Of a DNA stretch of 64,000 nt, positions 3,862-45,767 are shown in pieces. Source of the DNA: Candidatus Acetothermia bacterium (GTDB taxonomy: Bacteria; Bipolaricaulota; Bipolaricaulia; RBG-16-55-9; JANLFV01); contig JANLFV010000003.1 of assembly GCA_024653345.1 (NCBI GenBank), positions 62,001 to 126,000 on the forward strand. The letters are read 5' to 3'. The number at the start of each line of letters is the position of its first letter. Position 1 is the first letter of the stretch. Below the pieces are notes generated by a model. It searched no databases. It had not been told where the DNA came from and saw only the letters and a program-made list of their open reading frames with translations. The position numbers and the translations under genes are program-made.

Positions 3862-3866
3862 GATCT

Positions 3867-3889
3867 CCTTCCCCCTTCAAGGGGGAAGG
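3867..3889. repeat. dispersed palindromic repeat
   Basis: An 11-bp perfect inverted repeat (CCTTCCCCCTT/AAGGGGGAAGG) with a one-base centre, followed by GAGGGATGAGGGTAG. It belongs to the palindrome family found throughout the intergenic regions of this window and lies just upstream of the RNA methyltransferase start. Confidence 0.75.
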
Positions 3890-3917
3890 GAGGGATGAGG
3901 GTAGCCCCAGCCAGGAG

Positions 3918-3953
3918 CCCCCTCACCTCAATCCTCTCCCCCAAGGGGAGAGG
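3918..3953. repeat. dispersed palindromic repeat
   Basis: CCCCTCACCTCAAT precedes the perfect inverted repeat CCTCTCCCC/GGGGAGAGG (3933-3953, 3-base loop). It differs by one base in the left arm from the copies at 4743 and 5245. Confidence 0.8.
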
Positions 3954-4036
3954 AGGTTCTTCTTACAGGCATCAGTCAGCTCAAGCCGCTCAAACTCCGG
4001 CACTGTCTCGGTCTAACGCCCACACACGCACACTTG

Positions 4037-4723: not shown

Positions 4724-4742
4724 CGTGCCCTACCCTGCCTGA

Positions 4743-4780
4743 CCCCTCACCTCGATCCTCTCCCCCAAGGGGAGAGGAAG
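4743..4780. repeat. palindromic repeat, exact copy of 5245-5282
   Basis: A 38-base unit with a left arm CCCCTCACCTCGAT and a perfect 9-bp inverted repeat at 4757-4777. It is identical, and in the same orientation, to 5245-5282. The two copies bracket the DUF559 gene. Confidence 0.9.
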
Positions 4781-4849
4781 TTGCTCTCCCAAACATGCCT
4801 GCCACCCCGCAAGCGATCACTAGCCCCCGCATCCCTTTGAGCTGGAGCA

Positions 4850-4886
4850 CCTCTCCCTTGAGGGGAGAGGGCCAGGGTGAGGGTGA
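4850..4886. repeat. palindromic repeat, opposite orientation
   Basis: A CCTCTCCC/GGGGAGAGG core followed by GCCAGGGTGAGGGTGA. It is the reverse orientation of the family, directly after the DUF559 stop. Confidence 0.75.
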
Positions 4887-4895
4887 AGCCCGGCC

Positions 4896-5243
4896 TCATC
4901 CCAGCGCCTCCCTTATCCTCTCCAAGACACATTCCAGGTTCATGAGCACCTCATTATCCCAAAACCTCAGGACACGATAGCCCTGCTGCTCGAGCCAGGA
5001 TGCTCGCTCTCTGTCATTAGTCTGGTCGGGCTCCCGCGCATGCTGGCCCCCGTCGATCTCGATCACCAGATCTTGCTCGAGGCTGGCGAAGTCGACGATG
5101 AACCGGCCGATGGGCTGCTGTCGGCGGAACTTCACGCCCTCAAGCTGCCTGTTCCTCAGCCTTCCCCAGAGGACTCGCTCCGCTTCGGTCTGGCTCCGGC
5201 GGAGCTGGCGGGCGAGCTCGACCAGCGTGTGGCGCTTCTCCAT
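4896..5243 (-). CDS. DUF559 endonuclease-like protein in the rimM position
   Basis: This 115-residue protein matches the DUF559 domain, a Vsr-like member of the PD-(D/E)XK nuclease superfamily. Visible motifs are RRSQTEAERVLWGRLRNRQ, GVKFRRQQPIGRFIVDFAS, LVIEIDGGQH and GYRVLRFWDNEVLMN. The Asp of VDF and the Glu-Asp of EIDGGQH are the likely metal ligands. I chose the ATG at 5241-5243; the longer frame starting at 5270 only translates the adjacent repeat. The gene sits between khpA and trmD, where rimM is expected. Two identical 38-bp direct repeats flank it, suggesting it arrived as a small module. Function in the cell is unknown; DUF559 genes are common, often single, and horizontally spread. 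Confidence 0.85.
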   Translation of the reverse strand: MEKRHTLVELARQLRRSQTEAERVLWGRLRNRQLEGVKFRRQQPIGRFIVDFASLEQDLVIEIDGGQHAREPDQTNDRERASWLEQQGYRVLRFWDNEVLMNLECVLERIREALG

Positions 5244-5244
5244 A

Positions 5245-5282
5245 CCCCTCACCTCGATCCTCTCCCCCAAGGGGAGAGGAAG
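5245..5282. repeat. palindromic repeat, exact copy of 4743-4780
   Basis: A 38-base unit with its core inverted repeat at 5259-5279. It lies immediately upstream of the DUF559 start codon, so its transcript hairpin would sit close to that ribosome-binding site. Confidence 0.9.
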
Positions 5283-5336
5283 GTCTAGGACAGGCCATGA
5301 TTTCCCGGCATCTAGCTCGCTGGAAGCGAGCCAGAA

Positions 5337-5903: not shown

Positions 5904-5927
5904 CCCTTCCCCCTGGACGGGGAAGGG
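5904..5927. repeat. dispersed palindromic repeat
   Basis: A perfect 9-bp inverted repeat CCCTTCCCC/GGGGAAGGG with a 6-base loop, followed by CACAGGATGGGGGTGA. It lies in the ffh-rpsP gap. Confidence 0.75.
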
Positions 5928-5958
5928 CACAGGATGGGGGTGATGATCATTCATGATC

Positions 5959-5996
5959 CCCCCTCACCTCTCTTCCTCTCCCGCCAGGGGAGAGGA
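5959..5996. repeat. dispersed palindromic repeat
   Basis: A CCCCTCACCTCTCTT arm followed by CCTCTCCC/GGGAGAGG (core 5975-5995). It sits just after the ffh stop codon. Confidence 0.75.
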
Positions 5997-6015
5997 GGCT
6001 CTTATGGTTAGGCCA

Positions 6016-42773: not shown

Positions 42774-42903
42774 CCTTTTGTCCTGCGCCTGGGCATAGAC
42801 GACAAACTGTCTACCCCCCCTTTCAGCAAGCCTTCTTGACCTAACCTCCGGTCATGAGGTCGGACATCGACAGACTCAATCGGGGAACCGGGGAGGGACT
42901 GCC

Positions 42904-42936
42904 CCTCTCCCTTGAGGGGAGAAGGGTGAGGGTGAC
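42904..42936. repeat. dispersed palindromic repeat
   Basis: A CCTCTCCC/GGGGAGAAGG core (one mismatch) followed by GTGAGGGTGA. It is the same orientation as the copy at 4850. Confidence 0.65.
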
Positions 42937-42955
42937 GGATTAACCCCTTCCGTTG

Positions 42956-42999
42956 ACCCTCCCGCGTCGGGGAGGGGAATGGGAGAGCGGTCCCATTCC
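42956..42999. repeat. two adjacent inverted repeats
   Basis: CCCTCCC/GGGGAGGGG at about 42956-42977 overlaps GGAATGGGA/TCCCATTCC (42976-42984 and 42991-42999). They resemble the palindrome family in the mutS2 leader. Confidence 0.5.
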
Positions 43000-45648: not shown

Positions 45649-45688
45649 CCTTCTCCCCCGGAGGGAGAAGGCCGGGATGAGGGGGGAG
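45649..45688. repeat. dispersed palindromic repeat
   Basis: CCTTCTCCC/GGGAGAAGG inverted repeat (45649-45671) followed by CCGGGATGAGGGGGGA. Confidence 0.7.
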
Positions 45689-45729
45689 ATTCGCCCTCAC
45701 TACTTATCCGCCCGAGCCGGGTCCGCCCG

Positions 45730-45767
45730 CCCTCACCCTTCCTCTCCCCTCGAGGGAGAGGGGGAAG
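45730..45767. repeat. dispersed palindromic repeat
   Basis: CCCTCACCCTT arm followed by CCTCTCCC/GGGAGAGG (45741-45761). Confidence 0.75.

Follow-up and report, generated by a model that had tools for sequence, protein, structure and literature searches.

In the window (the whole 64,000-nucleotide stretch that was analysed), a DUF559 gene lies between the KH gene and trmD and is enclosed by copies of a dispersed palindromic repeat, with two gene-less pairs of such repeats within the same gene cluster. An earlier note on this DNA had described identical 38-bp direct repeats in the same orientation around the gene; the repeat search of the window showed that these are real, with two 100% identical, co-oriented copies located 502 bp apart (4742-4780 and 5244-5282), whereas their length is 39 bp and the coordinates had been off by one base. 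The only gene between them, read in that note as a DUF559 nuclease-like protein, does match PF04480 (137.6 bits against a cut-off of 20.6) and is the sole PF04480 match in the 1.71-Mb assembly according to the Pfam search. Two features had been overlooked: a third copy in inverted orientation directly past the DUF559 stop codon (4850-4885), and the zero gap between the upstream repeat (5244-5282) and the DUF559 ATG. Read in gene sense, the order is motif, DUF559 gene, inverted motif and, 69 bp further on, the second identical direct copy. Because of the third, inverted copy after the stop codon, the element was delimited as 4850-5282 with inward-facing inverted ends. The previously proposed 502-bp unit of one repeat plus gene was rejected, since elements elsewhere do not have that unit; the unit is 433 bp with inverted ends, and the second direct copy lies 69 bp outside it. 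The two identical copies of the motif termed TM_A may be the footprint of cut-and-repair, or a neighbouring copy homogenised by conversion. The features in the window are as follows:

4850..5282, minus strand: putative autonomous element of 433 bp, consisting of an inverted triplex motif, the DUF559 gene and a triplex motif (from motif positions; the length equals the median of 83 elements elsewhere)
4896..5243, minus strand: DUF559 (PF04480) gene, 115 aa, predicted Vsr/EDxHD-type nuclease, ATG 5243-5241, stop 4898-4896 (Pfam 137.6 bits; ATG from the sequence; fold match to 3hrl, I-Bth0305I and Vsr)
5244..5282, minus strand: predicted triplex motif TM_A, directly adjacent to the start codon, third strand gene-ward (repeat search and motif scan)
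4850..4885, plus strand: predicted triplex motif TM_C, past the stop codon, inverted, third strand gene-ward (repeat search and motif scan)
4742..4780, minus strand: second identical TM_A copy, 69 bp outside the element, one of the direct repeats of the earlier note (repeat search and motif scan)
3866..3955, no strand assigned: gene-less inverted doublet (TM_B plus, TM_A minus) beyond the trmD stop codon, MITE-like (motif scan; absent from the G001 alignment)
5904..5997, no strand assigned: gene-less inverted doublet (TM_B plus, TM_A minus) between the SRP (ffh) gene and rpsP, MITE-like (motif scan; absent from the G001 alignment)
45649..45762, no strand assigned: gene-less inverted doublet of another flavour (motif scan)
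42902..42987, no strand assigned: weaker doublet of another flavour, motif fit 0.80-0.86 (motif scan; a similar one lies elsewhere in the genome, L264)

The assignment of the repeats to a dispersed palindrome family was borne out by eight occurrences in the window with at most three mismatches, compared with 0.68 expected, and none of 100 shuffles reached eight. Across the genome, 23 places match the palindrome pattern with at most two mismatches, five of them within 2.1 kb around the DUF559 gene, compared with three places for a reversed control pattern. A separate short hairpin, CTAGCTCGCTGGAAGCGAGCCAG, is present just outside the element at 5310-5335, beside the KH gene stop.

In each repeat, a loop joins a pyrimidine arm to its complementary purine arm, and a short spacer leads on to a second purine strand. 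Judged by this grammar, the window repeats are BoxC/PIT/TM class II purine-motif intrastrand triplex motifs as defined in the available text of Holder et al. 2015 (PMC4666352): the third purine strand mirrors the purine arm, with T allowed opposite A, and the fit is 0.9-1.0 for TM_A and TM_C. According to the same text, the E. coli motif forms a triplex in vitro (PMC4666352). The initial scanner could not tell a mirror from a direct third strand, but a test of asymmetric arms could. It was applied to 267 hairpins with a fitting purine tail from the loci then at hand, which were pre-selected for at least 75% tail fit to either model and include related, non-independent sequences; of the 228 with an asymmetric arm, the mirror was better in 155 and the direct strand in 12, with 61 ties, and 1,971 of 2,076 tail positions fit the mirror. 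Covariation of the mirror strand in this way provides evidence from evolution for conservation of the three-strand grammar as such, which in vivo footprinting had not demonstrated.

A profile search of solved structures with DUF559 returned 3hrl (E 3e-35) and 3r3p, the homing endonuclease I-Bth0305I (E 6e-7). The structure model (mean pLDDT 89.7) was matched to 3hrl (Z 16.0, rmsd 0.8, 90 aligned), 3r3p_A (Z 11.8, rmsd 2.6, 92 aligned), Vsr 1cw0_A (Z 10.6, rmsd 1.9, 97 aligned) and TnsA 1t0f_B (Z 7.6, rmsd 3.5, 103 aligned), so that the window protein is, by its model, an EDxHD/Vsr-like PD-(D/E)XK nuclease fold, as are I-Bth0305I and Vsr. Residues E21, D50, E61, D63, H67 and D76 are invariant in 20 sequences, including that of the window, and are presumably catalytic. 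No HuH (Y1) transposase is encoded with the window repeats, as Pfam detected no domain in the gene other than PF04480 and the related PF18741, and the predicted fold is PD-(D/E)XK.

The same operon was compared in relatives. In G001, a genome of the same genus with 93% TrmD identity, 26 bp separate the KH gene from trmD, with neither gene nor palindrome between them, compared with 613 bp in the window genome, and the aligned blocks also exclude both gene-cluster doublets; G001 is a 73%-complete draft with three palindromes, compared with 18 in the window genome. The KH-stop search succeeded at five of 17 trmD loci, and the spacer comparison comprises G000, G001 and three distant relatives (9, 10 and 6 bp). 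The relatives therefore do not all carry the gene at this place with unrelated flanks, the pattern that the earlier note had named as contradicting its proposal of a small cassette that entered by recombination between, or together with, palindromes. Arrival of a small cassette together with dispersed palindromes is supported by the empty site in G001, while recombination between palindromes is unsupported, as that site has no palindrome. At the site of a second element, L005, G011 has the full element, G018 an element of which one end is broken, G017 a solo motif, G004 a remnant and G007 nothing.

The palindrome load of a genome was also linked with the gene. Of 60 Bipolaricaulota genomes, 10 have a strong solo DUF559 (E at most 1e-25), and their median palindrome count is 14, compared with 1.5 for the remaining 50 (Mann-Whitney p 8e-5); within the order the comparison of seven genomes with and 12 without gave p 0.012; for 41 Alphaproteobacteria, the medians were 31 (nine with DUF559) vs. 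0 (other 32; p 2.7e-6), all three p values being uncorrected for shared ancestry. Many palindromes were also counted in genomes without a strong DUF559, some of which are incomplete drafts (G016 with 49, G025 with 26, G015 with 20 and G009 with 16).

The search for other genes flanked by the same repeat, as the earlier note had suggested, leads to DUF559 itself in many phyla. Genome contigs were scanned with a ten-sequence alignment. At the best 80 of 583 relatives, the density of perfect hairpins was 7.9 per kb in the first 100 nt upstream of the gene and 8.8 per kb in the first 100 nt downstream, compared with 0.4-0.6 per kb farther than 500 nt away; the motif flanked 75 of 78 core genes at these best-80 loci and 53 of 1,560 controls. 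Because this sample could be biased, palindrome-blind Pfam searches were added for Bipolaricaulota (60 genomes, 26 loci scanned), Alphaproteobacteria (41, 28 loci), Gammaproteobacteria (56, 27 loci) and Cyanobacteria with Gastranaerophilales, the phylum of G062 (59, 30 loci), with class and phylum names taken from the centre genomes. The resulting 111 loci include three from a prior retrieval (L191, L206, L192); the Alphaproteobacteria and Cyanobacteria sets contained further matches without a locus, and L199 and L215 were left out. These loci comprise 70 core genes (A1 profile at least 70 bits, near full length), seven partial, 25 weak and nine below threshold.

With a scanner allowing a nested hairpin, 58 of the 70 core genes have a motif within 170 nt (8/12 in Bipolaricaulota, 17/18 in Alphaproteobacteria, 14/16 in Gammaproteobacteria and 19/24 in Cyanobacteria with Gastranaerophilales), and for the remaining 12 no motif was detected within that distance; a stricter scanner found it at 55 of 70. 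Random gene-sized placements in the same loci, more than 1.1 kb away, had a motif in 29 of 1,400 cases (15/240, 0/360, 8/320 and 6/480 for the four sets in the same order), with the placements not matched for intergenic position and all scanner thresholds set after the flanks of part of the best-80 loci were seen. The motif was present at three of 25 weak DUF559 members and within 400 nt of none of the 29 Vsr genes (PF03852, same fold) of Alphaproteobacteria, two of which are below the family cut-off. In 83 elements with both ends facing inward, the best-80 set included, the outer length has a median of 433 bp (IQR 418-450, range 373-649); in the L005 group, the third strands point outward, unlike the inward ends elsewhere. 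Protein and motif distances were weakly correlated (Mantel r 0.18, p 0.001, 105 loci). For viral contigs, 14 of 37 core genes were flanked, but so were 152 of 740 control placements, and nothing was therefore inferred from them. DUF559 matches were also present in 44 plasmid records. A DUF559 relative of 37-45% identity is encoded on each of 19 viral contigs of 4-9.5 kb (L138-L156), which may be small phages; most of these genes have no flanking motif.

Shortened and gene-less copies reuse the same two ends. When the L005 element of G011 was searched as DNA in ten relatives, both ends were found in many dispersed copies, often with the left and right ends a few bases apart and no gene between them. 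Both ends were detected by BLAST at 11 of 20 fetched places (L237-L244, L249, L252, L253), eight of the 20 having been picked because they were visible as pairs; L256 has a partial right end and L247 is a variant by eye. These doublets are ~82 bp long with outer GACCT...AGGTC, and at L252 one sits within another motif. On the 4.2-Mb contig of G089, 14 of 16 fetched places were found by regular expression to pair a single A end, which has a short spacer, with a single inverted B end, in which a hairpin separates the purine arm from the third strand: 11 are gene-less, two surround a full DUF559 gene (L338, L343) and one surrounds a truncated gene covering profile part 56-108 of 109 (L337). Of the two remaining places, L345 combines an A end with a degenerate B end by eye and L346 is a lone palindrome. 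Overall, the gene-less inverted doublets are ~80-115 bp long and MITE-like. No target duplication was visible in the comparison of one doublet with diverged empty sites, where the doublet apparently took the place of ~20 bases. A different dispersed repeat of ~48 bp (L005 2970-3017) has dozens of copies in the G004-G018 group.

At several loci, translation runs through the palindromes, and a conserved protein contains DUF559 in frame, as seen from Pfam domains. The hosts are class I tRNA synthetases (L047, L051, L091), PrmA (L098) and a GHMP kinase (L105), with DUF559 inside a domain or between domains, and DnaE (L088), with DUF559 between its alpha and finger domains. The host-protein sequences read as IleRS, ValRS, LeuRS and IspE, names that are our own reading. 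Pfam also places DUF559 in HsdS, HsdM and two methylases (L083, L003, L094, L010). Rickettsia palindromic elements are likewise palindromes inserted in frame in protein genes; they are not known to encode a protein, unlike the DUF559 element. At L010 (1-3306), a TIGR01443 intein C-terminal splicing region follows DUF559 within a DNA methylase, and this DUF559, at which the scan found no motif, therefore appears to serve an intein. The available text of PMC9403480 already places a DUF559 gene among EDxHD homing endonucleases in its intein section.

Further arrangements were observed. L393, from the phylum of G062, has DUF559 in an intein-like methylase insertion that resembles L010 by eye and has no triplex motifs. 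A 577-aa frame (G062:C3:93779-95140; L192, L209) contains two DUF559 copies at the same place in two Gastranaerophilales genomes, and the end of the frame resembles the IspE-type kinase of L105. At L003 (46-2349), HsdM, DUF559 and a GIY-YIG domain share a single frame. In four Xanthomonas-like loci (L082, L086, L095, L106), DUF559 keeps a position just before a gene with an hmgA-like start by eye, with the upstream motif present.

Combined, the nuclease, the derivatives with common ends, the defined length and orientation, the presence and absence at single sites, the gene-linked palindrome load and the in-frame copies in conserved genes argue for a mobile-element family. We consider it likely that the DUF559 gene and its palindromes form one mobile element, with the nuclease probably acting on the motif, repair spreading the element or its ends, and the doublets representing non-autonomous derivatives. 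The ends would be ~37-bp motifs, inverted, each with a pyrimidine arm, a purine arm and a mirror-image third strand, and the sole gene a Vsr/EDxHD-type PD-(D/E)XK nuclease. The probable substrate of the enzyme is the motif, recognised in the form of a duplex, an extruded hairpin or a triplex and then nicked or cut. PD-(D/E)XK nucleases hydrolyse DNA and do not transfer strands, so insertion would need host repair: repair or recombination would copy the whole element, or just its two ends, to a new place, and gene-less doublets, such as BoxC/PIT/TM pairs, would arise as non-autonomous derivatives. We thus infer movement, action of the nuclease on the motif and an insertion route from these patterns; for the route from hydrolysis to a new insertion, cutting with repair is our first choice and hairpin-directed copying the next. 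Besides the hydrolytic chemistry, several points weigh against this reading: no target duplication was visible in the one doublet compared, a motif was not detected at 12 of 70 core genes, some palindrome-rich genomes lack a strong DUF559, protein and motif distances are weakly correlated, and DUF559 has other uses, in inteins and, as proposed for Caulobacter VsrA, in mismatch repair.

Three other explanations were weighed. DUF559 could be a free-standing homing endonuclease that cuts existing motifs, the gene being copied in through homologous repair at the motif arms without creating motifs elsewhere. The homology to I-Bth0305I, the use of DUF559 in inteins, the solo motif that G017 has where G011 has the element and the two identical TM_A copies around the window gene are all in line with homing; but the empty sites of G001 and G007 have no motif, the doublets sit at unrelated places and the solo motif may be a deletion product, and we regard homing by itself as unlikely. 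Alternatively, the motifs could spread through accidents of replication or repair, such as slippage or template switching at stable hairpins, with DUF559 riding between them and kept for another job, e.g., mismatch repair. TM-rich genomes without a strong DUF559 exist, and hairpins are known to provoke such accidents (PMC4666352, available text); the Caulobacter DUF559 protein VsrA is required for the DNA-damage response in cells lacking a methyltransferase, and a role in mismatch repair was proposed for it (PMC12907096, available text). Accidents with a random passenger would not, however, be expected to produce the fixed element length, the pairing of one A with one B end in all scored G089 doublets, or the enrichment of the motif at DUF559 but not at Vsr, which makes a passenger role quite unlikely. 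That the palindromes are terminators or ribosome-binding leaders which DUF559 genes happen to need, as the G-rich tail of the upstream motif at the Shine-Dalgarno position and the possible termination of transcription at the downstream motif might suggest, is highly improbable because the same two ends occur as gene-less doublets and copies are translated through inside other proteins, and PIT motifs had no promoter or terminator activity in prior work cited in the available text of PMC4666352.

The preferred reading, a nuclease-encoding mobile element, shares features with several known systems. According to the available text of PMC4666352, BoxC/PIT/TM repeats are likewise dispersed and built of a pyrimidine arm, a purine arm and a reverse-Hoogsteen purine strand, and the E. 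coli pairs are inverted and always combine type A with type B, as in the G089 doublets; the authors found no mobility gene near these orphan repeats, whereas here such repeats form both ends of a nuclease element. The REPIN/RAYT (TnpAREP) system, as described in the available text of PMC3116915 and PMC8266576, similarly combines non-autonomous inverted palindrome doublets, dispersed in the genome as was found here, with a solo nuclease gene near repeats; repeat and enzyme vary together there, as they do here, where the correlation is weak. RAYT, however, is a HuH tyrosine transposase of the IS200/IS605 type and DUF559 a predicted PD-(D/E)XK nuclease, and the REP tags GTAG/CGTC (PMC3733652, available text) differ from the purine-triplex motif. 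EDxHD/Vsr-like homing endonucleases such as I-Bth0305I have a homologous nuclease domain, and DUF559 occurs in inteins as well; the known members reside in introns or inteins and possess additional DNA-binding regions according to the available text of PMC3943268, while here a bare ~115-aa domain occupies its own palindrome-ended element. As with insertion sequences and MITEs, autonomous, internally truncated and gene-less copies have common inverted ends; unlike insertion sequences, the element has no DDE, HuH or recombinase gene; no target duplication was visible in the one doublet compared with diverged empty sites.

We read this, from sequence comparisons, as a new mobile-element family that would work like REPIN/RAYT with a Vsr/EDxHD-type nuclease; neither its enzyme nor its ends fit a described mobile-element class, though the general logic resembles REPIN/RAYT. 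Both halves were known, and the joint element is not in print as far as the searched literature goes: a link between DUF559 and triplex repeats, or a spreading enzyme for BoxC/PIT/TM, was not found in that literature, whose coverage excluded most subscription papers and bioRxiv preprints. A stronger version, in which the nuclease would recognise a triplex (or a single strand folding into one), the ends would be selected as three-stranded and DUF559 would be the mover of BoxC/PIT/TM repeats across bacteria, is possible but doubtful; if true, triplex ends would be a first among mobile-element families. The nuclease element may explain how a long-known triplex-forming bacterial repeat family spreads, and joining these repeats with DUF559, a widespread family filed under unknown function, offers a directly testable answer for both. 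It would be a selfish element of ~430 bp with one nuclease, small enough for in-frame residence in conserved genes.

The E. coli DUF559 gene ycjD was considered as a clean case of presence and absence and rejected, since the three lacking strains inspected have a TetR/efflux operon beside fabI; at least 80% of the ycjD region is present in 3,362 of 5,426 E. coli genomes. The strict scanner found no motif at ycjD itself (0/1). In E. coli K-12 (L107 3690-4320), the start of the gene carries a long inverted repeat with a different sequence and the stop a decayed GC palindrome, with a BoxC copy ~170 bp beyond the stop palindrome, and the ycjD locus may be a fossil element.
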